Source: Actinomucor elegans
Lineage: Eukaryota > Mucoromycota > Mucoromycetes > Mucorales > Mucoraceae
Length of the DNA: 64,000 bases
Assembly: GCA_026027325.1 (NCBI GenBank)
Contig: JAMSLZ010000001.1
Span: forward strand, 62,001-126,000
Reading direction: 5' to 3'
Every line of letters begins with the position of its first letter. Position 1 is the first letter of the stretch. Positions 972 through 60,109 of the stretch are shown one piece after another. The position numbers were made by a program, and so were the translations under genes. The notes beneath the pieces were generated by a model. The model was not told the origin of the DNA and made no database searches. It saw only the letters and a list, made by a program, of their open reading frames with translations.

Positions 972-1253
972 GGAGGTCATACAGATACTCGCAATTGTTG
1001 TACAATTACTCGTACAGGTTCTGGGTTAGTGGATGACCTTAGGTATTTACTCATGGGCATATTTTTGGCTGCTGTGATGTTCTCTGGATATGTGTACCCA
1101 TTTAAATGGCTATTTCCAATTTTTAAAACGGCTAGAAATATTTGGAATGCCGGAGACATATTGTATAACCACATTCTATTGCACCCGGTCATCCACTAAC
1201 CCAGAACCTGTACGAGTAATTGTACAACAATTGCGAGTATCTGTATGACCTCC
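972..1253. repeat. 282-bp foldback module, left end of A1
   Basis: The first 67 bases (from GGAGGTCATACAG to GGATGACC) and the last 67 bases are perfect reverse complements around a middle of about 148 bp. The same module occurs inverted at 3089-3370 and again at 22201-22482 and 33511-33792. Confidence 0.93.
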
Positions 1254-1458
1254 TAGTGGGATATCTCACCACACACTGGTAGACATACGTTCCATAGCAA
1301 GGTAGTAGAGAGGGGGGGGGCAAAAGGGATGATCTTGTCCAGAGACCTGAATAGTTTCAGCCCCCCTGGGAATGGAAACTAAGGAGCCTAAGGTTGTAGT
1401 ACGAGTAACATGTGTTGACAGTTGGGCGAAGCTTTTAAAAAGAATCCCCTTGTGGAAC

Positions 1459-2870
1459 CTACTTCTTCCGCCTTCTTCTAACGTCTTTCTCATACTCGAT
1501 AATAATATCAGAGTCGTCGAAGTTGTTAGGAGAAAGCCAACTATTGCTACTCTCATCATAGCCTACCCACCTAACCAAATACTCTCTACGATGCTTTGGT
1601 CCACGATGCCCAACAATGGCCTCAACCTCGTAGTGTCCTTGTGGTAAGTCCTCGTCGATGGGTTCGTCATCAGAGCCATTATCTTCGTTCACCCCCAAAG
1701 AGAGAAACTGCTGCTGTATTTCTTTTACCATCTCAGCATCTTGGGACTTTTCCGCAATTTTGTAAGGGTACTTACTACGTCATAGGCATTCTTACTGCTG
1801 CCATTTGGAAAGTCGAAGTTAGGCTGCATCCAAAAAGTATGTTGTTCAGAGCTAGAAACACACCCAATGTTAACAAACTTCTTGATGTTTGCAAGAAGAC
1901 ATGCAAGCTTGAACTGTACCGTGAATGTCTCCATCTCGGTAACTCGAATAACGCCTTTACCGTTGAATCGTTGAAATAAGGTTCCAATCTCTCCAAACGT
2001 TGCTTCTATCGAGGAACGAAAGCTTCCAAGAATGGAGTTGTAATTAACTTCTTCTTGTTTCAGACCCACTCCTCGAGACTTACGGATAGGGAATACAAAA
2101 TTATGGCGATCCAGGTGACGATTATTTGCTACAATACGATCTATAAAAGTAGTGTATCCACCATCAACGACAACACAATCGTACTTACTAATCTTCTTCT
2201 TCAACCGCATATCAGCAAGCATAGACCCATCGTTGTTATCTGAACATGGTGCCGCATCGGAGACAAACAACACCATCCCATTAACATCTGTACATACTTG
2301 TGTTCGGAAGCCAGACTTCTTAAGCTTATACGAATAGAACATGGCATGATCTGCAGCGTTGATATATGTTGCTCTAGAATCATGTCCATCTATCATCAAG
2401 GTAACATGCTTAAAATCTTCAGGGTTTCGGTGAAGAGCACACATAATTCGCAGCTTTGTTGAGGAGAACATCTTTCGTAGGCAATAGTCCAAACAGGTAT
2501 TCAGCTCCTCTCCGTATTTTGTATAAAAGGCATTGTAAATAGCATGGTAGCTACTAGAAGGGATGAAACGTGCCATATGCGCAATAGAACAACCGGTAAG
2601 AAGCTGGTAGATTATCAACAATCCTTTGTCCACGTTGGAATATGGACCAGGATATTCTTGGTTTGCAAACAGCTCTACGAGAAAGAAAAAAACAGGTATG
2701 TAGCCAAGATGCTCCAACACATAAGTTTTTACATGCTGGATATCTTTTACAGGCTTAACCTCAGACCGGTGATACTTAGTCTTTTCCAACACTGGCCAAT
2801 CTTTAGAAAGAAACTGCCAGTAAGTCGCCATAAGCAACGTAAACGCATCTACTATTTCTTTCGGAAACAT
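1459..2870 (-). pseudogene. Chromodomain DDE transposase, frameshifted (A1)
   Basis: This is the same protein as the 469-residue A2 transposase, starting at the ATG at 2870. The DDE core is present (IDGHDS, VDGGY, SSIEATF), as is the chromodomain (YEVEAI, LVRWVGY, NSW). Two extra T bases near 1757-1762, relative to A2 (GCAATTTTGTAAGG against GCAATTGTAAGG), shift the frame between the catalytic core and the chromodomain. The result is a 381-residue open N-terminal part and a separate C-terminal chromodomain frame (1459-1731). Except for that indel it matches A2 closely by eye, so the lesion is recent. Confidence 0.85.
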
Positions 2871-3088
2871 GTTTATTTAAGAATGCTGTAGTATAATAGG
2901 AGTTGAATGCTACCAAATGCTGTTGTTCACTCCCAGTCCTACAGTGTAGCCTTAGGCTCCTTAGTTTCCATTCCCAGGGGGGCTGAAACTATTCAGGTCT
3001 CTGGACAAGATCATCCCTTTTGCCCCCCCCTCTCTACTACCTTGCTATGGAACGTATGTCTACCAGTGTGTGGTGAGATATCCCACTA

Positions 3089-3370
3089 GGAGGTCATACA
3101 GATACTCGCAATTGTTGTACAATTACTCGTACAGGTTCTGGGTTAGTGGATGACCGGGTGCAATAGAATGTGGTTATACAATATGTCTCCGGCATTCCAA
3201 ATATTTCTAGCCGTTTTAAAAATTGGAAATAGCCATTTAAATGGGTACACATATCCAGAGAACATCACAGCAGCCAAAAATATGCCCATGAGTAAATACC
3301 TAAGGTCATCCACTAACCCAGAACCTGTACGAGTAATTGTACAACAATTGCGAGTATCTGTATGACCTCC
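3089..3370. repeat. 282-bp foldback module, right end of A1
   Basis: Reverse complement of the module at 972-1253, again with perfect 67-bp inner inverted repeats. Confidence 0.93.
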
Positions 3371-3749
3371 CCTCTCTCTCTTGATCTTTCTTTTCTTCTG
3401 GTCCTAGTACCCTTTCCAACGCTGTTTGCTTTTGCTTCTTGTTCTCTCCTTTTTTTCTTACTTTTTTTGTGGATTCCCGGATGTTGGTGTATGTCTTTTG
3501 GTTTGGCTGCGGTGTGTCTGTCGAGGTGTTCCCCATGTGAACAGTTCCCACCCCCAATCTTCTGCTGCTTCTCATCTTTCATCTTTTTTATGTTCTTCTT
3601 TTCTTTCCCGTAGTTTTTTGTTGTCTTTTTATAGTTTGGTCTAAACCTCCATTAGGAGCTTAGGATTTATTGTACAACCTATAATATAGACTTTTTGCTG
3701 CTTTGCTCCTGGTATTGCAACTAAATGCTCCATAGAGCGAATGCATATA
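3371..3749. other. Pyrimidine-rich non-coding stretch
   Basis: Continues the C/T-rich sequence of 915-971 on the far side of A1. It is probably the region downstream of the ORF1-like gene. No gene is seen; open frames here are low-complexity Leu/Phe/Ser reads. Confidence 0.5.
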
Positions 3750-22181: not shown

Positions 22182-22200
22182 ATCATAGACTTTTTATACA

Positions 22201-22482
22201 GGAGGTCATACAGATACTCGCAATTGTTGTACAATTACTCGTACAGGTTCTGGGTTAGTGGATGACCTTAGGTATTTACTCATGGGCATATTTTTGGCTG
22301 CTGTGATGTTCTCTGGATATGTGTACCCATTTAAATGGCTATTTCCAATTTTTAAAACGGCTAGAAATATTTGGAATGCCGGAGACATATTGTATAACCA
22401 CATTCTATTGCACCCGGTCATCCACTAACCCAGAACCTGTACGAGTAATTGTACAACAATTGCGAGTATCTGTATGACCTCC
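22201..22482. repeat. 282-bp foldback module, left end of A2
   Basis: Same module and orientation as 972-1253. The adjacent G-run differs in length between copies (12 here, 9 in A1). Confidence 0.93.
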
Positions 22483-22681
22483 TAGTGGGATATCTCACCA
22501 CACACTGGTAGACATACGTTCCATAGCAAGGTAGTAGAGAGGGGGGGGGGGGCAAAAGGGATGATCTTGTCCAGAGACCTGAATAGTTTCAGCCCCCCTG
22601 GGAATGGAAACTAAGGAGCCTAAGGTTGTAGTACGAGTAACATGTGTTGACAGTTGGGCGAAGCTTTTAAAAAACAAGTAC

Positions 22682-24576
22682 TCATACGTTGGTGATCTCG
22701 CATTCTACATCACGAACACCACGTACTTTCTTTACTCGAATTAGACAAACATAGAACAAGGTATGCTTCTCTAGTTGCTTCTCTACAACTTGTTTTAAAC
22801 CTGGACTGCAACGGACTGAGGTACCATTGGACAGCCGTAAGAAGAACATTTAGTATTACAGAAATATGTTCAAAATAGTACAATATATAAAAAAATTAGG
22901 AAATAATAGATTTTTTTGAATACAAATAATAATATAAATAAATTTTATTCTAAAATAGAACAAGTAACCAACATTTTATTTATGGATAAAAAGGCAACAT
23001 TATATTTATGCCTTGATTTTTTAGGAAAGTTAAAAATATTAAGTAGTTGTAAATGTTTATCTAAGTGGAGATAGTTCTTACTTCGGAATGTACCATAACC
23101 ATATCCGGTTACTTGGTACTTCACACCTACTTTCATGAAAGAATAATCTGGTTTAGCTCCAGACACTGGGAAGGGATCTAGATGCTGTAATAGTTTATCA
23201 TCATGTGTCTCCTTGGCCAACCTGATGGTCGCAAGTTTATCTCCTCTTTCAGGTCGCAGTCTACTTTTTGGCCATTCGAGGGTGATGTTGCGGAAAGAAC
23301 AAATCCCTAAATCACCAAAAGAAGCTGCTTTGTTGGTTAAATCCTTTCTATAGGGTGTTAAGGAGTTAGATATCCCTGGAACCAACGTGATGGCAGAACA
23401 TCCTTCTTCACGACGATATATGCTGTCTTCGAGTATCTTATATTCATGACTATTCTTCTCAAACTTAACTACCAGATAGTGGATGGGCCTATCGTTAAAG
23501 CTAAAGTTTGCAAGATGGAGCATTACGTACTCTTCTGGTACTTTTGTATGAATTATGCCTTGCATTCGCTTGGTAAGGGAGTTCCACCAATGGCAGTAAG
23601 CGAAAGTCTTTGTTTTGGGAACATATATAGCTGCCATTTGCGTAAGGTTCTTAGCTAGTTGCTTCCATTGTCTGTCGAAGCTGACCTTGTATGTTGGACA
23701 ATTATCAAGGAACTCAAGGACCCTAGACATAGTTTTGGTATAATAGCTTTCCTTCTTGAGTTGGGTGTTATAAAACGTAATTTCTATTCTGGTCATACCA
23801 TTACCACGATACTTATTAAGGCGCTCTTGAAAATCTTTGTCAGGGTTAGAAACCAAGTGGTGCAATTGGGAGCCGATTAAAGACCTTAATTCACGGCTTT
23901 CAAGCATTTGGACAAACTTGTTATAGATCTTTATTCGTAAGGGTATCTTAGCACTAGAACTATCATGCTGCCTCCATGATAAGCAGTTATCACCGACTGA
24001 GTGACGATCGTTGACAATATCTTTATCTTCTACGCCATTAGAAGTAATGTACTCCTTAATAATATCGCGTGTTGATATGTAGGCGCAGTCGATGCTTATA
24101 TCCAAGTCATGTAAAAGGATATAATTCTTTGCAACCTTACAGCATATCTTCTTAAGCTTTGGCCACAGTTCCCCATAGCTGATATTCTCAAACGAAACTC
24201 TCAGCGATATATAGCCTGGCTGGTATTTATCCCAGCTAATACCTGATTCTTTTGCCTCCCTTTGTTGGATGTCGTTGACAAGTTTATCTTCACCAGCATG
24301 CCATTTACCCCTACCAGTGTAAAAGAGCTTGAACTGCTCCACTTGTAGGTGACGGGATAGAAGAAGCCGAAGAATGCTCATGTACATTCCTACAGCAGAA
24401 CTTAGCTTCTCTTGTTCCCAATGTACAGCACACCAGAAGACAATGCTGTCGCAGAATACTGCGCTAACATAATCCCAGCCCACACGTTCTCTCGTCGCGC
24501 TACCACAAGTGTAATCGACACCATAGATATTACTAAGGTATTGGTTGTAATCTATAAAGATTTTACTAAGGGGCAT
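22682..24576 (-). CDS. Second protein of A2, possible replication-initiator-like (split by MITE)
   Basis: Starts at the ATG at 24576. The first 505 codons end exactly at 23062, a 221-bp MITE plus its TAA duplication follows, and 51 more codons in the same frame run from 22837 to a TGA at 22682-22684: about 556 residues. The last residues of the uninterrupted frame (to 22945) are MITE-encoded and not original. The family is not recognised with certainty. DLDISIDCAY near 155-165, LRIKIYNK near 215, and TRIEITFYN near 272 resemble the spaced pattern of Rep_trans-type rolling-circle initiators, in which an acidic cluster is followed by R-Y-K and R-E-I motifs. The gene lies about 100 bp downstream of the transposase on the same strand and is absent from A1. 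A different nuclease or a structural accessory protein remains possible. Confidence 0.5.
22841..23061. mobile_element. Solo 221-bp E-type MITE inside A2 second gene
   Basis: Starts GAAGAACATTTAG, ends GTAAATGTTTATC; 3-bp duplication TAA (22838-22840, 23062-23064). By eye identical to the two terminal modules of element E at 27516-27736 and 29799-30019. Confidence 0.93.
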
Positions 24577-24673
24577 TGTGTAGTATATGCTTAGAATATG
24601 CTACCATGTGCTTTAAAAGGCTTAAATATTCCATATATTTTAACAAGTTTTAAAAAACATCCCCTTGTGGAAC

Positions 24674-27600
24674 CTACTTCTTCCGCCTTCTTCTAACGTC
24701 TTTCTCATACTCGATAATAATATCAGAGTCGTCGAAGTTGTTAGGAGAAAGCCAACTATTGCTACTCTCATCATAGCCTACCCACCTAACCAAATACTCT
24801 CTACGATGCTTTGGTCCACGATGCCCAACAATGGCCTCAACCTCGTAGTGTCCTTGTGGTAAGTCCTCGTCGATGGGTTCGTCATCAGAGCCATTATCTT
24901 CGTTCACCCCCAAAGAGAGAAACTGCTGCTGTATTTCTTTTACCATCTCAGCATCTTGGGACTTTTCCGCAATTGTAAGGGTACTTACTACGTCATAGAC
25001 ATTCTTACTGCTGCCATTTGGAAAGTCGAAGTTAGGCTGCATCCAAAAAGTATGTTGTTCAGAGCTAGAAACACACCCAATGTTAACAAACTTCTTGATG
25101 TTTGCAAGAAGACATGCAAGCTTGAACTGTACCGTGAATGTCTCCATCTCGGTAACTCGAATAACGCCTTTACCGTTGAATCGTTGAAATAAGGTTCCAA
25201 TCTCTCCAAACGTTGCTTCTATCGAGGAACGAAAGCTTCCAAGAATGGAGTTGTAATTAACTTCTTCTTGTTTCAGACCCACTCCTCGAGACTTACGGAT
25301 AGGGAATACAAAATTATGGCGATCCAGGTGACGATTATTTGCTACAATACGATCTATAAAAGTAGTGTATCCACCATCAACGACAACACAATCGTACTTA
25401 CTAATCTTCTTCTTCAACCGCATATCAGCAAGCATAGACCCATCGTTGTTATCTGAACATGGTGCCGCATCGGAGACAAACAACACCATCCCATTAACAT
25501 CTGTACATACAGTGACTTACAATACTGTCCGCATGTTTTGCAATTTTAGCTTCACATTATCATTACTCGCTCGATAATGGCTGCAAAAATATAAAAATAA
25601 TATCATTTGAAAGCCCATCAAAATCATTACAATTAATTGAAACCTCAAATCATATGACTTTCCTAATATAGAGTATTAATCGTTTAAAAAGGAACATCAT
25701 GCGGACAGTATTGTGAGTCAATTTTTAGATGCGAAATTCAACCCATAAGTTGAACATGATGGAAATTGACTCAAAAACAAAGTTATCTTTCATCGCGCAT
25801 ACTCTCATTAATTCATTAAATCACAATCTTATTATACATTCTTAATTTATTTCATAAGTGATGAGACCCATATCTGAAGACACACGACAAAATATCATTG
25901 GCGACCTCCAAGCAGGCTATTCCATTCGCCAGGTTGCCTATCGCACCAATGTTGGGCGCACGACAGTCAATAAAGTCGCCGCGGAACACTTACCTAATCG
26001 AAAGAAGCCAAAAGGAGGTAAACCTTTAAAGCTTAAAGAAGCGGATAAAAGATATTGCGTGCGACAGATTACAAGAGGAGGCCAGGGAAACGCAATAAGT
26101 GTTCAAAAACAATTGTCATTTGACTTTGGTTTATCTGTTTCACCGCAGACCGTGCGTAGGGCACTCAAGGCCGAAGGCTTAGGATCTATGGAAAAGGAAA
26201 CGAAGCCAAACCTCAATGCCAAAAACATACGTGAGCGATTAGCTTGGGCAAAAAAGTATGAGGACTATACGATAGCCGATTGGAGAAGGGTTATTTGGTC
26301 TGATGAGACTAAGATAAACCGCTTCTGCTCTGATGGTCGTACTTGGGCTTGGATTCGAGACAACGAGCCACTACAAGATCGCCACATAAAGCAAACAAAA
26401 AAGCATGGTGGAGGAAGCATCATGATTTGGAGTTGCATATCTTGCATTGGAGTTGGATGGATGTGTAAGATCGATTCCATAATGGACAAGGAGCTTTATG
26501 GGACGATTCTGCGTGACGAACTGAGGAAAACGGTAAAGTTGGTCTGCCAAGAAACAGGATTAAGAACCAATCAGATCATCTTTCAACAGGATAACGACCC
26601 AAAACATACTTCTGGTACGGTCAAAGACTACCTCAAAAAACAAAAATTCGTAGTAATGGACTGGCCATCTCAATCTCCTGATCTTAATCCAATCGAGCAT
26701 ATGTGGGCCTTAGTCAAAAGACGACTAAATGACTATGATACTCCGCCTTCTGGCATGCAAGAGCTTTTTGAACGTGTTACAGACGTATGGTACCACAAAA
26801 TTACCAAAGAAGAATGGAAAATATACATGCTATTCATATACCTATGTATCTTTAAAAAATATTCGTAAAATTTATAATCATATATATATATATAAAACAA
26901 AAAAAAATTACAAAATCTTTTTTATTTTTTAAGTCATGTGACATCATGATACGTATCCCTTAAGTTTAAAGGTTATCTAACCCAGCATGATATTCATCAA
27001 TTATTTCTCTATCATTAAATGCGTCTTCCCATATCCAACTATTGTAGCTATCATCATAATTTTTCCATTTAATAAAATATTTTGTTCTTTTTTTATATTT
27101 TCTATGATTTAATATTTTTTCTATTTCATATGAATCATTTTCTATGTATTCTATATTTTCGTCAATTATCATTTCACTTTTATTTAGCATATCATTAATA
27201 AATGAGTTTTGTTTATTTCTCATATTAATGACTCTACAATATTCAAAAGTTTCAGTAAATGCATCTTCATTATGATTTTTGTTACTTGGATAATTAAATT
27301 TATCTTGTATCCATAATCCATAATAATCTTTAATTGGAATATTTTGAAGCTCAACAAATTTTTGGATGTTACTTAATAATAATGCCATTTTTAACTGTAA
27401 ATTATATATTCTTATATTATCAATTTTAAGAACTTTATTACTATTATCAAATCTTTGGAATTTATCACCTAATCGTCCAAATTTATTTTCAATGATGCTT
27501 CTAAAACTTCCAAAAGAAGAACATTTAGTATTACAGAAATATGTTCAAAATAGTACAATATATAAAAAAATTAGGAAATAATAGATTTTTTTGAATACAA

Positions 27601-30600
27601 ATAATAATATAAATAAATTTTATTCTAAAATAGAACAAGTAACCAACATTTTATTTATGGATAAAAAGGCAACATTATATTTATGCCTTGATTTTTTAGG
27701 AAAGTTAAAAATATTAAGTAGTTGTAAATGTTTATCTTGTCCTATTTTTAGACTTCCATTGCGTTTAATCACATTGAGAAATCTAAAAACAACTTCCTTG
27801 GCATCTAATTCTTGGCATGATATTTTGGAAAATATAAAAGTATCTATAATATTTGAGAATTATTTTTAAAATAACATCAATATTATATTTAATGGAAAAA
27901 ATCTATTATTATGCTGTGGTTTTAACTCTAAATCCTGAAAAAAAAGATGTCAAGAATAAATCATCCGAAATATTAAACAAGAAAATACTGCAATGGGTTG
28001 GAAATATAAAAAATATTGATAAAATTTTATATAGTGGTCCTTTCTATGATGTTGGTGAAAACAATACAAATATCCATGCCAATTTAGTGATAAAAACAAT
28101 TTTAGATGATAACGAAAAAGTTAGAAATGAATATTTCAAATCCTGGTGTTTAAGAAAAGGATATGTTAGTATTAAAGAAATTTATAATTTTAAATCATGG
28201 TTAGATTATGCAAAAAGAAATCATAAGTTCTTGGAAAATATAGAAAATATTAAAAATTGAATTTTCATATATAAATAAAAGTTTATTAAATATAGAAAAT
28301 ATTAAAAATTGAATTTCTCTTTATATAAAAATACATCATTTTATTTGTTTATGAACACTCATATAGACTTATTAATTGAAAATGAATACAGAAATATTTA
28401 CAATAGGTATTGGAAATTTATGAAAAATGAATATATATATAAAGTTGAATTGAAATATCATAGATCTAAAATAACGAGTATACCAAATATTGATAGAATT
28501 AAAAAAAATATATATATTAAATTAGGAAGTATTGCTCCATTTGTATTTTTGACAGATTTATGTAACAATATAAAACTACCAGGTCCATATATAACAGCAG
28601 ATAAAGTATTGATATTATTAGAACATTTATTAAATGGAAAATCTATAAATGAAATGGAAATGTATATTCCATCTACTAGTTTTTATAAATTATATCAATC
28701 ATTATATATAAATAATTATGATTTATTGGAAAAATGGATAAATAATAAATTAGAAAAATGTTTTTCTACACATACATTGAGATTACTTTGTGCTAAGAAA
28801 TTTAATCCAATGATGTTAGATAATGTAACATTACTAATTGATGGTCACCATAATCGTATAACATATCAAGATATTAATCTAGATAAAAAAGAGTTATTCT
28901 CGTATAAATTAAAAAGAAATGGATTAAATACACAATTTATTATAGATATTAATAGAATATGTGTTTATATATCTGATTCCTTACCTTGTAGAAATAATAC
29001 TGATGATAAAATGCTTTTAGACATAAATATCAATAAGTTTTATAATGAAATAGATTGTATATGTTTTGATGGATTATATGAAAACACAGTAAAAGAATTT
29101 ATAGAAAAATTTAGTAATATTGGATTTAATATATCCTTGAAAAATTTTTGCTATCCTATAAAAAAAGATAAAGGAGTTGAATTAACCATAGATGAAAAAA
29201 AATTCAATGAAGAATTAGGTGGATTAAGGTCAAAAATAGAAAAATATTTTGCAGAATTAGGTAGTATTTTTAAAAGATTTAGTGGACAAAATAAGATTAG
29301 AATAACAGATAATAAGACATATAATATACAGCTAAAATTAGCAATAGTATTACTGAACATAAAATATTTTACAGAGTTATTTGGAATTGAAGAAAATGCC
29401 CATTACAACAAATGGCTAAATGATAATTTTGATTATTATTATAAAAATAATATTGAAATGAATAAAGAAGTAACATTAAAAACACAATATAAAATAGAAA
29501 ATATCGTTGATATAAAATCATTACAAAATCAATTTTTAAATAATTTAAATATAAATGAAGTGAATATAGATATTATGGATCAAATGGAGGAAGATATCAC
29601 TAGTAATAATGATCAAAATATATATGAAATACAATATATAATTAAACACAAAAAAGTAAAGAACTTATATGAATATTTTGTAAAATGGAAAAAGTATGGT
29701 AAAGAACATAATTCATGGGTAAAAGAAAAAGATTTTACATCACATGATACTATTTTGAATTATTGGAAATCAATAGAAAATAATTAATCAATTAATAAGA
29801 AGAACATTTAGTATTACAGAAATATGTTCAAAATAGTACAATATATAAAAAAATTAGGAAATAATAGATTTTTTTGAATACAAATAATAATATAAATAAA
29901 TTTTATTCTAAAATAGAACAAGTAACCAACATTTTATTTATGGATAAAAAGGCAACATTATATTTATGCCTTGATTTTTTAGGAAAGTTAAAAATATTAA
30001 GTAGTTGTAAATGTTTATCAAAGTATTATTGAATTCAATTTCATTATCACTTAACTTAATTCCTTTTTTTTTTCTAAATGGAAATATAAAATTATCGTTA
30101 TTGATTTTATCATTTCCATATTTACTACAATTCTCTAAGAAGTCTTCTATAAATAAATTATAACCTCCATCAACTGCTATACAATCATTTTCATTTAATT
30201 TATTTTCTAGTTTCATTGCTAAAAACATTTTACCATCATTATATTTTTTACATGGTAAACTATCTGATACATAAATAGCTATTTCATTAACATCAATTAT
30301 TACTTGGGTTCTAAATCCTGATTTTTTAAATTTATATGAATACATATCTTTACTTTTAATTTTCAAATCTGTATAGTTAACTCTACTATCATGTCCATCC
30401 AAAAGTAAAGTAACATGCTTAAAATGCTCAGGATTAAGTCTATTAGCATAATATATTCTTAATAAAATTGTGCTAAACATATTTTCTAATAGTTTATTAC
30501 ATGTTTTATGTAGCTCATTTAAGTTTACATCCCAGAAACTTTTATATATTTCATGAAATGATGAATAGGGTATGTAATCATTCATTTCTCTTATGCTTTT

Positions 30601-33289
30601 ACCTGTAATTAAGTGATATATTATTAGTAATCCTTTTTCAATATCTCTATATGGAGTTTTATATTTATAATTTACAAATATATTATTTAAAAAGAAAAAT
30701 ATAGGTATTATGCCTAATTTGTTTTGTAATTCAACCTTAATTTCTTCAATATTTTTTACATCTTTTAGTTCTGTTCTATGTTTATACTCATCTTCTTTTA
30801 TTTTCCATTCCTCATCTAAAAAATTCCAGTAACTATGTTTTATTTTATTTAATTCTTCGTATATAAGTTTATCCATTTTATGTTTTTTATATATGTTTTT
30901 TTCAATTTTTATTTCATTTTAGCATTTAATGATAGAGAAATAATTGATGAATATCATGCTGGGTTAGATAACCTTTAAACTTAAGGGATACGTATCATGA
31001 TGTCACATGACTTAAAAAATAAAAAAGATTTTGTAATTTTTTTTGTTTTATATATATATATATGATTATAAATTTTACGAATATTTTTTAAAGATACATA
31101 GGTATATGAATAGCATGTATATTTTCCTTATAATAATAACAGTCAAATTTACTGTAATACTTATTAAGGAGAACATGTTTGTGCATTTAAGCATAAAAAT
31201 TTAACAATTTACATAGATTTCATGAATTATATAAATGTTAGGGTTAATTTTAAAATCACGTGATTGTTAAAATGCCCCTAAATTTATGAATTTCATTTTT
31301 TTCAGCTTTTTTTTAGAATACCAAGACATTTTTAGAAATCACATGATATGATAGCTATAAAACATACTAATTCATTTTACTATCATTATATGTTTAATGG
31401 ATAGGGATGTATTATATTAAGAGTCTCGTATTTTATTATTAATTAAATAAAAGGATTCAAAAAATTATTTATATTAAAATATATATTGACTTTATTTAAT
31501 ATTTAATTTATTAAATATATTAATAGCATCATCATAATTTATATCCTCATCTTTTATCTCGTTATTTATTTTAATAAAACCTGTTTTAATTGTAAAATTT
31601 ATATATATCTTACCATTACTAATATTTATAGATGGTGAAAATAATGATGGATAAATAGAAAAACATTTATTTTTAATATCATCAATACTTAAATTTTGAT
31701 TATTTTCTATATTTTTAAATTTGGATATATTAGTTAATACCAAATACATAATTTTTGTATTTTCTTTTGAATTCGATTCTATTAAAGGATTTAATAATTC
31801 TACATTCATAATTTTATTTCTTCTACAATACATATTTATTTCATTTATTAAAACATTTATAAAACTTTCAAAATCAATATGTTCATTACTAGTAATGTCT
31901 AAATCTATCTTTATTTTATATGGTTTTTTTTCAATCCATAATTGACTATCTTCAAATGCAATCTTTGTATCAATTATGAAATTATGACCATTATACAATA
32001 CATTGTATTTGTCATCCTTAAATTTCTCTATTAAAAAAGCATTTTTATCATATTCTGTTAATGTTATTACAGGCATATTTATTTTAATGTATGTTTTTCA
32101 ATTTATGTTAAATAAATTAAAATTGGAAATATAAGAGTAATCTAGTTTTTATACATATATTAATTGGATGACATTGTTGTTATATAGTATGTTTTATAGC
32201 TATCATATCATGTGATTTCTAAAAATGTCTTGGTATTCTAAAAAAAAGCTGAAAAAAATGAAATTCATAAATTTAGGGGCATTTTAACAATCACGTGATT
32301 TTAAAATTAACCCTAACATTTATATAATTCATGAAATCTATGTAAATTGTTAAATTTTTATGCTTAAATGCACAAACATGTTCTCCAATGTTTGAATGTT
32401 ATTGACAGTATGCCTTTACGCTGTGAAGCTGTCATCAAAGCGAAAGGCCGCTGGACCGATTATTAAAGCAGATTTATCAATAAACAAATTTTGTGAACCC
32501 CTGCTCACAATACTGTCCGCATGATGTTCCTTTTTTTAAACGATTAATACTCTATATTAGGAAAGTCATATGATCTGAGATTTCAACCTATTGTAGTGAT
32601 TTTATTGGGCTTTCAAATAATATTATTTTTACATTTTTGCAGCCATTATCGAGTGAGTAATGATAATGTGAAGTTAAAATTGCAAAACATGCGGACAGTA
32701 TTGTAAGTCACTGTACTTGTGTTCGGAAGCCAGACTTCTTAAGCTTATACGAATAGAACATGGCATGATCTGCAGCGTTGATATATGTTGCTCTAGAATC
32801 ATGTCCATCTATCATCAAGGTAACATGCTTAAAATCTTCAGGGTTTCGGTGAAGAGCACACATAATTCGCAGCTTTGTTGAGGAGAACATCTTTCGTAGG
32901 CAATAGTCCAAACAGGTATTCAGCTCCTCTCCGTATTTTGTATAAAAGGCATTGTAAATAGCATGGTAGCTACTAGAAGGGATGAAACGTGCCATATGCG
33001 CAATAGAACAACCGGTAAGAAGCTGGTAGATTATCAACAATCCTTTGTCCACGTTGGAATATGGACCAGGATATTCTTGGTTTGCAAACAGCTCTACGAG
33101 AAAGAAAAAAACAGGTATGTAGCCAAGATGCTCCAACACATAAGTTTTTACATGCTGGATATCTTTTACAGGCTTAACCTCAGACCGGTGATACTTAGTC
33201 TTTTCCAACACTGGCCAATCTTTAGAAAGAAACTGCCAGTAAGTCGCCATAAGCAACGTAAACGCATCTACTATTTCTTTCGGAAACAT
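24674..33289 (-). CDS. Chromodomain DDE transposase of A2 (split by T2)
   Basis: The first 192 codons run from the ATG at 33289 to 32714. T2 is inserted at a TA, and 278 codons including the stop continue from 25507 to 24674: 469 residues in frame once T2 is removed. The fold follows Harbinger-type DDE_Tnp_4 nucleases: IDGHDS (D161), VVVDGGY (D236), SFRSSIEATFGE (E289 or E294). Residues about 412-461 are a chromodomain that keeps the three aromatic-cage positions (Y at the start, W and Y in RWVGY), and the protein ends RRRRKK, a likely nuclear localisation signal. Predicted role: excision and insertion at 3-bp targets, with the chromodomain directing it to methylated-histone chromatin. Activity is inferred. 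Confidence 0.85.
25861..32466 (+). CDS. Tc1 transposase of T2 (split by C+D)
   Basis: The ATG at 25861 is preferred to the adjacent GTG at 25858. The first 955 bases run to 26815, and 77 more from 32390 to the TAA at 32464-32466 complete 343 codons in frame when 26816-32389 is removed. It has an N-terminal HTH (SIRQVAYRTNVGRTTVNKV), a second HTH region, then the DD34E catalytic core with WSDETKINRF, DNDPKHTSG and SPDLNPIEHMW. It acts in the nucleus on TA targets by cut-and-paste. The T1 copy shows the uninterrupted C-terminus but has lost one base upstream. The gene was probably functional until C+D inserted. Confidence 0.92.
26966..30876 (-). CDS. Chromodomain DDE transposase of C (split by E)
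   Basis: Starts at the ATG at 30876. With E (27516-30019) and one AAA repeat removed, the frame is continuous for 468 codons including the stop, matching the A2 transposase in length. LDGHDSRVNY (first Asp), IAVDGGYNLF (second Asp) and FGSFRSIIENKFG (Glu; split at the E insertion) form the DDE core. The chromodomain has YEIEKI, YFIKWKNY and NSW with aromatic-cage residues kept. The C-terminal codons lie within the left inverted arm of C. Strong A/T codon bias sets it apart from T2 around it. Confidence 0.85.
27516..27736. repeat. 221-bp terminal module of E, left
   Basis: GAAGAACATTTAG...GTAAATGTTTATC, with imperfect short inverted ends. By eye identical to 29799-30019 and 22841-23061. Confidence 0.93.
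27892..28260 (+). CDS. Small HUH/Rep-like protein of E
   Basis: The ATG at 27892 is chosen; an upstream in-frame ATG at 27853 adds 13 unlikely residues. About 122 residues. YYYAVVLTLNP near the start resembles Rep motif I. IHANLVIK near 70 sits where an HUH metal-binding motif would be, but only one His is present. GYVSIKEI followed by WLDYAKRN near 103 recalls the Tyr...Lys region of motif III. This is pattern resemblance only, with no helicase domain. The stop codon overlaps an AAAATTGA element, and the transposase follows on the same strand with its ATG about 90 bases downstream. It may be degenerate or unrelated to Rep proteins. Confidence 0.4.
   Translation: MEKIYYYAVVLTLNPEKKDVKNKSSEILNKKILQWVGNIKNIDKILYSGPFYDVGENNTNIHANLVIKTILDDNEKVRNEYFKSWCLRKGYVSIKEIYNFKSWLDYAKRNHKFLENIENIKN
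28304..28312 (+). promoter_or_regulatory. AAAAATTGA element upstream of E transposase
   Basis: 38 bases before the ATG at 28351. The block ATAGAAAATATTAAAAATTG is duplicated just upstream, overlapping the stop of the HUH-like gene. Confidence 0.45.
28351..29787 (+). CDS. Chromodomain DDE transposase of E
   Basis: The ATG at 28351 gives 478 residues; an in-frame TTG at 28309 falls inside the AAAATTGA element and is rejected. LLIDGHHNR (first Asp), CFDGLYENT (second Asp) and SKIEKYFAELG (Glu) give the DDE core in the same order and spacing as A2. The C-terminal chromodomain has YEIQYI, YFVKWKKY and NSW. The frame is uninterrupted, so this is the best preserved AT-rich copy. It is divergent from A2, B and C in sequence, so these are separate families and not copies of one element. 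It ends 11 bases before the right terminal module. Confidence 0.88.
   Translation: MNTHIDLLIENEYRNIYNRYWKFMKNEYIYKVELKYHRSKITSIPNIDRIKKNIYIKLGSIAPFVFLTDLCNNIKLPGPYITADKVLILLEHLLNGKSINEMEMYIPSTSFYKLYQSLYINNYDLLEKWINNKLEKCFSTHTLRLLCAKKFNPMMLDNVTLLIDGHHNRITYQDINLDKKELFSYKLKRNGLNTQFIIDINRICVYISDSLPCRNNTDDKMLLDININKFYNEIDCICFDGLYENTVKEFIEKFSNIGFNISLKNFCYPIKKDKGVELTIDEKKFNEELGGLRSKIEKYFAELGSIFKRFSGQNKIRITDNKTYNIQLKLAIVLLNIKYFTELFGIEENAHYNKWLNDNFDYYYKNNIEMNKEVTLKTQYKIENIVDIKSLQNQFLNNLNINEVNIDIMDQMEEDITSNNDQNIYEIQYIIKHKKVKNLYEYFVKWKKYGKEHNSWVKEKDFTSHDTILNYWKSIENN
29799..30019. repeat. 221-bp terminal module of E, right
   Basis: Direct copy of 27516-27736. Confidence 0.93.
30902..30910 (-). promoter_or_regulatory. 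AAAAATTGA element upstream of C transposase
   Basis: On the minus strand, about 26 bases before the ATG at 30876. Confidence 0.45.
31492..32076 (-). CDS. Unrecognised 194-residue protein of D
   Basis: A clean AT-rich frame from ATG 32076, sole gene of the D unit, bounded by its inverted arms. No family is recognised. KIKIDLDITS places two Asp residues two apart (about 58 and 60) after a beta-like stretch. A D-x-D of this kind occurs in archaeo-eukaryotic primases, but the expected downstream Ser/His motif is not visible, so this is only a hint. No membrane segment or signal peptide. An AAATTGA element lies about 22 bases before the start, as in the neighbouring AT-rich genes. Confidence 0.55.
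   Translation of the reverse strand: MPVITLTEYDKNAFLIEKFKDDKYNVLYNGHNFIIDTKIAFEDSQLWIEKKPYKIKIDLDITSNEHIDFESFINVLINEINMYCRRNKIMNVELLNPLIESNSKENTKIMYLVLTNISKFKNIENNQNLSIDDIKNKCFSIYPSLFSPSINISNGKIYINFTIKTGFIKINNEIKDEDINYDDAINIFNKLNIK
32098..32104 (-). promoter_or_regulatory. AAATTGA element upstream of the D gene
   Basis: Seven of eight bases of AAAATTGA on the minus strand, about 22 bases before the ATG at 32076. Confidence 0.35.
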
Positions 33290-33510
33290 GTTTATTTAAG
33301 AATGCTGTAGTATAATAGGAGTTGTATGCTACCAAATGCTGTTGTTCACTCCCAGTCCTACAGTGTAGCCTTAGGCTCCTTAGTTTCCATTCCCAGGGGG
33401 GCTGAAACTATTCAGGTCTCTGGACAAGATCATCCCTTTTGGCCCCCCCCCCTCTCTACTACCTTGCTATGGAACGTATGTCTACCAGTGTGTGGTGAGA
33501 TATCCCACTA

Positions 33511-33792
33511 GGAGGTCATACAGATACTCGCAATTGTTGTACAATTACTCGTACAGGTTCTGGGTTAGTGGATGACCGGGTGCAATAGAATGTGGTTATA
33601 CAATATGTCTCCGGCATTCCAAATATTTCTAGCCGTTTTAAAAATTGGAAATAGCCATTTAAATGGGTACACATATCCAGAGAACATCACAGCAGCCAAA
33701 AATATGCCCATGAGTAAATACCTAAGGTCATCCACTAACCCAGAACCTGTACGAGTAATTGTACAACAATTGCGAGTATCTGTATGACCTCC
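33511..33792. repeat. 282-bp foldback module, right end of A2
   Basis: Reverse complement of 22201-22482. Confidence 0.93.
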
Positions 33793-34369
33793 ACAGTCTT
33801 GTTTGTTATTCTTCTTTTCCTTCACTTTTATCCTACGGGTTTTTTACATAAGGTTTTTATCGAGGAATAACTACGATCAGTTCATTACAAGGCGAAAGGA
33901 CACGCACCGAAGTATGTAACTTCCTATTAACTTATGCACATTATAGACTACACCTAGTAACAATGCAAACACTCTTAGTATAAGCAACTGTCTAGAAGGG
34001 GGCAATGTTGTAAACATGACTTGTTCAGTGTCCGTCACCAATCAGGTCAATGTTCGACAATGCTTATACTCAGCTTGTGCTTTGACAGCTTTGTAACGTC
34101 GGTTAAGAGATATATATGGAAATCAATGCTTAGTGCAACTAACCTTCATAAACTATCTATCACCGAATATAAAGTCGTACTAGAATGGATTACTATAAAT
34201 CCTTGTTAACTCCATGAGCGCAGTCTTTGACTAACTCAATCGTCTATAATATCAAGTTAAATCCGAACTTCAATTTTGTATAAATAGCTCATCATTTTAA
34301 TGCTTTAATAAATCAATTCGTTTTATAAGTCTGGTTATTTTTACAGTCTTTATTATATTCGATATAACA

Positions 34370-58980: not shown

Positions 58981-59167
58981 AACATCATCCATAGAAGACT
59001 TTGAGATATTTTTTAGTTTTTATATAACAATTTTCTACATGTTCAATAAAATTTGATTAGTATATAATTATTAACATTATCTAATAAGCTCAATAAGGAT
59101 GTATCCCAAAGGAACTCTCAGGTCCATATTGAAACTCCTACTACCACAAATTTTATTGTTATATGAA

Positions 59168-59175
59168 AAAATTGA
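59168..59175 (+). promoter_or_regulatory. AAAATTGA element upstream of IS1595-type transposase
   Basis: 52 bases before the ATG at 59228, within AAAAAATTGAATTTTTTTT. Confidence 0.45.
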
Positions 59176-59227
59176 ATTTTTTTTACAAATTAAAATTAAA
59201 AATAAAAAGGATTTAATAAAATTGCAG

Positions 59228-60109
59228 ATGTTTATAGAACCATATAAATCTTTAAAAAAAATATTCGACGATGAAAAAGAAGCACTATTATATTTAATTA
59301 GTAATGATTACGTTAATAAACATATAAAGTGTAATAAATGTGAACATGAAACTAAATTAAACTTAAATAAAAAATTATATGTTTGTAGATATTATAAATG
59401 TAGGAAAGCAATATCACCATTGAAAGGAACAATTTTTAATAATTTAACTTTACCTTTAAATACTCAATTACACATATTATATCTTTTTCTTGGAAAAGCA
59501 CCTTCTTCCTTTATAGCATCAAGTTTGCAAATTAGCAAAAATACAGTGTCATCATACAATAAAATATTCAGAAAATACTTGAAAAATAAACAATTGTTAG
59601 GTAACAGAAATATTAAAATTGGAGGTAGAAATAAAATTGTAGAAATCGATGAAAGTAAAATTGCAAAAAGAAAATATAATAAGGGGCATAAGGTAGAAGG
59701 TGCTTGGGTAATTGGTGGTATCGAAAGAAGTATGCTAAAAAATAAAATAAAAAATGAAAACAAAAAAATGTTTTTATTACCCATTGAAGAAAGAAATGTT
59801 GATAATATTGATTTAATTATAAAAAGATATGTAAAAAAAGGTACAACAATATATACGGATTTATGGAAAGGGTATAATAACTTGAAAAATATAGGATACA
59901 AACATTTAACTGTAAATCATTCAAAGCATTTTAAAGATCCAAATACAGGTGTGCATACAAATACAATTGAAGGCACATGGAATGGCTTAAAGCAAAGTAT
60001 AATACCACGAAATAGAAATAAAAAAGATATAGTATTGTATTTAAAAGAATATCAATGGCGTAAGAAAAATAGAGAGTATAACGTATGGAAAAAGTTTTTA
60101 AAGGATTAA
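59228..60109 (+). CDS. IS1595/Merlin-type (ISXO2-like) transposase
   Basis: The ATG at 59228 (MFIEPYKSL) is preferred to that at 59099, because an AAAATTGA element lies between them and the upstream residues look non-coding. About 293 residues. The N-terminal zinc ribbon has CNKC near 38 and CRYYKC near 55. A helix-turn-helix region follows (SLQISKNTVSSYNKIF), then the DDE core: VEIDESKIAKRK (first Asp), YTDLWKGY (second Asp), HTNTIEGTWNGLK (Glu). This is the layout of ISXO2-like transposases of IS1595 and eukaryotic Merlin elements. Terminal repeats and the expected 8-9 bp duplication were not identified. The frame is intact and very AT-rich. Confidence 0.85.
   Translation: MFIEPYKSLKKIFDDEKEALLYLISNDYVNKHIKCNKCEHETKLNLNKKLYVCRYYKCRKAISPLKGTIFNNLTLPLNTQLHILYLFLGKAPSSFIASSLQISKNTVSSYNKIFRKYLKNKQLLGNRNIKIGGRNKIVEIDESKIAKRKYNKGHKVEGAWVIGGIERSMLKNKIKNENKKMFLLPIEERNVDNIDLIIKRYVKKGTTIYTDLWKGYNNLKNIGYKHLTVNHSKHFKDPNTGVHTNTIEGTWNGLKQSIIPRNRNKKDIVLYLKEYQWRKKNREYNVWKKFLKD

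Follow-up and report, generated by a model that had tools for sequence, protein, structure and literature searches.

A two-gene Harbinger-type transposon of Actinomucor elegans with palindromic ends and a putative Rep_trans-like partner protein

We analysed a stretch of 64,000 nucleotides (nt) from the fungus Actinomucor elegans (assembly GCA_026027325.1, contig JAMSLZ010000001.1, positions 62,001 to 126,000), hereafter the window. It contains an outer transposon, A2, which encodes a transposase and a second protein, P2, and which carries several nested insertions (Table 1). A nested Tc1/mariner-type element splits the A2 transposase gene in two, and a solo 229-nt repeat interrupts the P2 frame behind residue 505, which leaves the window copy dead. 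A2 is thus a dead, nested copy of a 4.16-kb two-gene DNA transposon.

Intact copies lie elsewhere in the genome examined (36.5 Mb in 27 contigs, labelled C1 and so on; fetched end regions are labelled L). The uninterrupted copy at C8:350815-354975 is 4161 bp long, with open reading frames (ORFs) at 503-1912 (469 amino acids, aa) and 2010-3680 (556 aa), the P2 ORF lying 97 bp downstream of the transposase ORF on the same strand. An earlier note on this DNA, working from A2 with its insertions removed, had described a 469-residue transposase ending in a chromodomain and a 556-residue partner on one strand within 3-bp target duplications. The C8 copy confirms this without any insert having to be removed, and A2 itself is flanked by ACA. 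Both proteins are present as open neighbouring frames at five loci (C3:101023, C8:351317, C11:525571, C12:3658693 and C21:2358716), and at least 13 full-length transposase frames are free of stops among the matches listed. Two more full copies show 6 and 8 differences from the C8 copy; in a third, one of the end units is inverted and the sequence beyond the end units differs at 6 positions. The A2 family has been mobile recently.

Table 1 Features of A2 and of a related derivative, in window coordinates
Feature	Position	Strand	Remarks
A2, outer transposon carrying nested insertions	22201-33792		359-nt inverted ends; the same ends bound the uninterrupted 4161-bp copy
Target duplication ACA, A2 left	22198-22200		Flank sequence
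Target duplication ACA, A2 right	33793-33795		Flank sequence
A2 left 282-bp palindromic unit (67-nt perfect arms, 148-nt middle)	22201-22482	+	
A2 right 282-bp palindromic unit	33511-33792	-	Opposite orientation to left unit
A2 left terminal inverted repeat (TIR), inner non-palindromic part	22483-22625	+	Inner limit approximate; repeats I1, I6; intact copy
A2 right TIR, inner non-palindromic part	33369-33510	-	Inner limit approximate; repeats I1, I6; intact copy
A2 P2 (second protein, Rep_trans-like)	22945-24576	-	Own residues 1-505, then read-through into inserted repeat; intact homologue P0001, 556 aa
Solo 229-nt repeat D1 inside A2 P2	22838-23066		
A2 transposase, N-terminal piece	32708-33289	-	Equals P0110 residues 1-193
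A2 transposase, C-terminal piece: DDE_Tnp_4 end and chromodomain	24674-25489	-	PF13359 E 2.4e-5, PF00385 E 2.4e-10
Nested Tc1/mariner-type element with further insertions	25510-32713		TA duplications 25508-25509 and 32714-32715; DDE_3 and HTH_Tnp_Tc3_2 in ORF 25858-26868
2399-bp A2-family derivative without P2	972-3370		Duplication CCT; transposase ORF 1725-2870 (-), frameshifted near its end

The transposase carries DDE_Tnp_4 (PF13359), which we take to be the transposase domain of PHIS transposons; it scores 24.4 bits in the C-terminal piece in the window, just under the cut-off of 24.8, and is also among the precomputed domains of P0110. The chromodomain reported in the earlier note is indeed present at the transposase C-terminus (PF00385; Table 1). 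From what is generally known of chromodomains, the domain could plausibly act here as a targeting module. Three other chromodomain transposase families in the genome lack P2, and relatives of P2 are also paired with transposases without a chromodomain, as judged by the equal-size contig matches described below. For both reasons the chromodomain, though real, seems not to be tied to P2 and to be separable from the pairing.

Matching 3-bp flanks surround 16 of the 18 elements for which both outer ends were examined, elements with a truncated or unfetched end being left out of the count; flanks re-paired at random gave a mean of 1.3 matches and a maximum of 7. The exceptions are C26:38982-41386 and C21:2358212-2366250 (L077-L079), where two A2-family copies stand head to head with one 282-bp end unit in common and the outer flanks read TAA and ACT. 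No consensus emerges from the 16 duplications. TWA, the target of PIF/Harbinger, occurs at none of them, and ANT, the target of Pangu, fits just 5 and fails to describe the set. The AT duplication of ISL2EU is absent, the duplications being 3 bp long, and no YqaJ is among the Pfam families listed for P2. Around solo end units (see below), TTA is found at 2 of the 6 with matching duplications. Flank comparison thus points firmly to 3-bp duplications of no fixed sequence around A2-family elements.

PHIS groups include PIF/Harbinger, ISL2EU, Pangu and Nuwa (PMC4482050). As described in the available part of that source, PHIS transposons share with the A2 family inverted ends, 3-bp duplications (in most groups) and two ORFs, the second for a DNA-binding protein. 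The DDE_Tnp_4 transposase is a further shared feature. The A2 family differs from those descriptions in that its 16 duplications show no TWA, AT, ANT, CWG or TNA consensus, in that its partner is Rep_trans-like and neither Myb/SANT nor YqaJ, and in having a C-terminal chromodomain and 282-bp palindromic end units. Compared by these descriptions, the family is PHIS (Harbinger-type) by transposase domain and duplication size and lies outside the described groups by target and partner. The label Harbinger-like given earlier is therefore apt as far as transposase domain and 3-bp duplication go, and not for the target, which is not TWA, or for the partner, which has no Myb match. A further source (PMC12730594) describes relatives of Harbinger in fungi that carry other extra proteins.

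The earlier note had named the recurrence of the pair in other genomes as one point on which its proposal could fall, and the pair does recur. A single gene model of Rhizomucor pusillus (P0039) combines a transposase tail with chromodomain (residues 3-88) and P2 (residues 104-514), in the same order and strand as in A2 but in a different genome. In addition, 12 of 106 P2 homologues lie on a contig equal in size to that of a listed transposase homologue (120 listed of 235 found), whereas contig sizes offset by 1-60 bases either way gave a mean of 2.8 matches and a maximum of 7. Within each of the 12 equal-size pairs the two members carry the same source label, of which there are few kinds. Across 13 putative pairs (these 12 and A2), P2 and transposase distances correlate with r = 0.79, a value reached in 0 of 10000 permutations; P0010, which matches two transposases on an equal-size contig (P0112 and P0117), was paired with P0112. 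One of the 12, P0011/P0192, is probably coincidental because the trees place the two partners differently. In a quick P2 tree, one group of 36 holds the 10 rows paired with chromodomain transposases, along with the doubtful P0011; a group of 38 holds the other 3, tied to transposases without a chromodomain. Paired rows likewise form two groups in the transposase tree, and the pairing therefore seems old, with the chromodomain separable from it.

These results bear on whether P2 came from an unrelated integrated plasmid or virus and stands beside the transposase by chance, an idea to which the plasmid and phage origin of the relatives of its presumed fold lends some weight. The same pair occurs in the same order inside the same ends at several loci, with the 97-bp gap in the C8 copy, and this, together with the fused Rhizomucor model and the correlated distances, makes such an origin highly improbable. 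Named relatives of P2 and of the transposase come from fungi such as Rhizomucor, Apophysomyces, Mortierella and Cunninghamella, all of which we take to be Mucoromycota in the wide sense. The one exception is a P2 homologue named as a protein of an archaeal metagenome-assembled genome (P0109); it lies on a 2.3-kb contig and is probably fungal contamination.

P2 has 109 homologues at E 0.001 and zero matches in Pfam, PHROG and PDB sequence searches. When 87 relatives were scanned singly against Pfam, weak matches were scattered over families, none of which was matched by more than 5 of the relatives (best E 0.00097). Myb/SANT was found neither for P0001 (0 families) nor among the listed 25 of the 58 families that the 87 members match weakly, and no His-Me finger family is among the Pfam results listed for P2. 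The HUH motif is absent from P2, in which H329, within YCHWWN, is the sole histidine among conserved columns. A tblastn search of plasmids returned 4 records (best E 0.9), and scans of viral and prokaryotic contigs gave no confirmed P2 relative.

The AlphaFold2 model of P2 is confident (pLDDT 94, pTM 0.86) and has what appears to be a core like that of TATA-binding proteins (TBPs), as in Rep_trans initiators. Compared with solved structures, the model gave weak best matches, none at E 0.001 in the PDB, that include TBPs and the Rep_trans initiators 4cwe and 4cij; three VirB4-type rows rank above these with lower probability. VIA-align placed TBPs first and 4cij_D at rank 29, with the longest alignment. 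In a viral library, an inovirus 'GST REP' ranked 6 (E 0.003, probability 0.96), and the sole match below E 0.001 was nameless.

The Rep_trans domain has the sheet connectivity of TBP, and its active-site residues are named in the available part of Carr et al. 2016 (PMC4797284). Paired with that reference by order and spacing rather than by superposition, P2 has, in the same order, D43 (D46 in the reference), D159-x3-D163 (D142, D146), K216-x-Y218-x-K220 (R189, Y191, K193) and R263-x-E265 (R212, E214). Each of these eight residues is found in at least 97% of the alignment rows with a letter (87 homologues), and all eight are within the 44 most conserved of 556 P2 columns. A regular expression for DxxxD, [K/R]xYxK and RxE, written after seeing the family, gave 82 matches among the 87 family members, against 19 among 5000 shuffled versions of P0001 and 1 among 120 transposases. 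If P2 shared only the TBP-like double-ferredoxin fold, it could be a non-catalytic DNA binder whose likeness to Rep_trans is convergent. The near-invariant Y, K, R, D and E in Rep_trans order and spacing, these motif counts (post hoc as the expression is) and the inovirus match argue against this, and we consider it unlikely.

Rep_trans and MobT proteins (pT181 Reps, RepSTK1, NicK and Orf20), as far as they are described in the available parts of two sources (PMC4797284, PMC9371924), resemble P2 in having acids, Y, K and R in matching order, and probably in their TBP-like crescent catalytic domain, and their targets are inverted repeats, as are A2-family ends. Unlike them, P2 is longer, has a conserved YCHWWN (327-332) and extra strands toward the C-terminus, and shows no sequence-profile match. 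To our knowledge, Rep_trans initiators and relaxases occur only in bacteria, their phages and conjugative elements. By model and alignment, P2 has the conserved putative active-site residues of Rep_trans-type tyrosine nickases and probably also their fold, and we infer that it very probably works like one.

Each end of an A2-family element begins with a 282-bp unit, in which perfect arms of 67 nt enclose an asymmetric middle of 148 nt; ~141 nt of ordinary inverted repeat follow, so that the terminal repeat of the intact copy is ~424 nt. The outer 32 nt of the arm has 118 matches in the genome, and the 100 listed are all mismatch-free (3 mismatches allowed). We fetched 59 end regions, of which L078 is the shared middle unit of the double copy; L053, L065-L068, L075, L076, L080, L081 and L083 were left out of pairing and solo counts (truncated or interrupted units, or partner missing). 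The 282-bp units also occur solo. Matching duplications flank 6 of the 12 examined, and 4 of the other 6 have identical flanks. At L037, L048, L054 and L071, on C3, C8, C11 and C14, one and the same solo unit lies between identical flanks of 12 nt, and these four sites probably represent one duplicated segment.

Read from the outside in, the 148-nt middle is inverted at 12 of the 36 outer ends of 18 elements: at neither end in 7 elements, at one end in 10 (5 at the transposase-start end, 5 at the opposite end) and at both ends in 1, which lacks a gene match. Private mutations of the middle are found at both ends in 2 of 2 elements carrying one (C11:525068 and C12:3658189). A change confined to a single arm of a single unit was seen in one element. 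Compared with the reference, one solo unit has 14 substitutions and a 3-nt indel in its middle, a second has 7 middle differences, and the arms of both have 0. Owing to this confinement of changes to the middles and to the private mutations at both ends, the arms must be constrained or kept alike, and the two ends exchange sequence. Private mutations and flips fit copying through the palindrome, and also recombination with gene conversion. Because they fit the latter too, we do not accept rolling-hairpin replication as shown. A CT'AA-type nick site was dropped as an argument, the word CTAA being too short.

The element, its gene pair, its duplications and its palindromic ends can be read from the genome sequence with confidence. 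As to how these parts work together, we lean towards a two-gene transposon in which DDE transposition is joined to a palindrome-nicking replication enzyme. P2 would bind and nick the terminal palindromes, a role suggested by the resemblance of the ends to the targets of its bacterial counterparts, hairpin-forming inverted repeats. A host polymerase would use the 3' end at the nick as its primer to copy either the element or its ends, and the transposase would paste the copied product. Where such copying ran through the palindrome, the 148-bp middle would come out inverted (flip/flop) and the two ends would become identical, both of which match observation. A part for P2 in copying the element is, taken by itself, a tentative possibility. 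The fullest version is doubtful: a cut-and-paste transposon that also replicates itself via hairpin ends, its nickase resolving and copying the palindromes (hence flip/flop, homogenised termini and head-to-head copies) and its chromodomain DDE transposase integrating the products.

A different account, possible if not what we expect, makes P2 an accessory to transposition that binds and perhaps nicks the ends to assist cutting and pasting by the DDE transposase, as may also be true of the Myb-like and YqaJ partners of other PHIS groups. Replication would play no part, and flips and end sharing would be products of host recombination acting on the 67-nt arms and the long TIRs; at 67 nt, perfect arms probably have the length that recombination needs. 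PHIS transposons commonly have two ORFs, one of them for a DNA-binding partner, and the role of the partner is called unknown in the available part of the source (PMC4482050). Several results lend weight to this account or otherwise weigh against a replicative nickase. The 3-bp duplications match at 16 of 18 elements, and the family with 229-nt repeats, whose ends are short and imperfect, shows no flips (21 of 21 pairs direct among matches listed). The equivalent of R140 in the Rep_trans reference is not conserved in P2. At E 10 the PF02486 profile matched nothing in the genome, with the Bacillus subtilis control recovered, and hhalign of P2 against five MobT/Rep_trans-type proteins (five of six MobT proteins fetched) did no better than shuffled columns. 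The nickase residues are nevertheless among the most conserved of P2, which binding alone would not need. The four solo-unit copies in the duplicated segment, with 0 or 2 mutual changes and all in one orientation, speak weakly against frequent in-place flipping. Because the profile tests are negative, P2 is called Rep_trans-like and not a PF02486 member; the Rep_trans-like partner suggested in the earlier note thus stands on fold and active-site residues and fails on PF02486 and hhalign. A phage Rep was discarded as a Rep_trans comparison, since the Rep of that record has an HxH motif by eye, and the MobT set was used instead.

P2 is missing from some family members. At window 972-3370 it was lost by a ~1.75-kb deletion between short repeats, and derivatives of ~2.4 kb without P2 are found with both ends at five sites, this one mapped and the other four judged by their size and the lack of a P2 match there. 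An open 469-aa transposase frame is kept in 4 of the 5, and matching target duplications surround 4 of the 5. P2 is therefore not required in cis; it is dispensable there and possibly helps in trans.

Parvovirus and adeno-associated virus (AAV)-type ends have a terminal palindrome and an inner non-palindromic repeat, with flip/flop at both ends and head-to-head copies sharing one end. The A2 family resembles them in its palindrome and inner repeat, its flips and its head-to-head copies. It differs from these viral systems with their HUH Rep in having a DDE transposase and a P2 without HUH, and its replication is putative. The nearest published architecture we found is KolobokP (Kojima and Bao 2022, PMC9587614). 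As the available part of that source describes it, KolobokP is likewise a composite-like DDE transposon with end repeats that have their own inverted termini, with frequent solo repeats, adjoining copies that may have an end repeat in common and a nuclease as second protein, and dual propagation is proposed there. By the same description it belongs to another transposase superfamily, has direct end repeats where the A2-family unit occurs in both orientations, encodes a His-Me finger nuclease in place of a Rep_trans-like nickase, and has termini of at most 18 bp against arms of 67 nt (PMC9587614).

In the literature, searched by titles and abstract openings with preprints and most subscription papers outside the search, no DDE transposon with a Rep_trans-type partner was found among the matches listed. 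In the textbook view, DDE transposons move by cut and paste and rely on the host for replication. If the favoured reading, DDE transposition joined to a Rep_trans-like nickase, is right, a fungal lineage combining the two would connect transposons to replicons and offer a possible explanation of copy gain. The A2 family makes the role of second proteins in Harbinger-type transposons testable.

Other elements in the window and genome are also of note. Inside both ends of the nested Tc1/mariner-type element (25510-25720 and 32504-32713) its terminus is repeated in inverted form, and these ends are thus also unit-like. Between two 229-nt direct repeats, window 27513-30024 holds a 2.5-kb element that encodes a DDE_Tnp_4 transposase of 492 aa with a chromodomain, together with a conserved protein of 122 aa (27892-28260, + strand). 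By eye, this small protein has HUH-Rep-like motifs (AVVLTLNP, HxNL and YAKRN); it has no convincing match in Pfam, 39 genome copies are listed at 100% identity alongside more distant ones, and 12 homologues occur elsewhere. If the HUH-like reading is true, this would be a second transposon with a replication-type partner. A further chromodomain transposase family (L092 991-3330 and L093 980-3319) has 232-nt direct terminal repeats and one internal gene (ORFs of at least 50 aa), a layout like that of KolobokP. An AT-rich element of 1.2 kb (window 31168-32386) has perfect inverted ends of 202 nt and encodes one 194-aa protein without a recognised family, in which 'KIDLDI' recalls primases by eye. 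Finally, window 59099-60109 is AT-rich and holds a 336-aa ORF that, by eye, resembles ISXO2/IS1595-type transposases.
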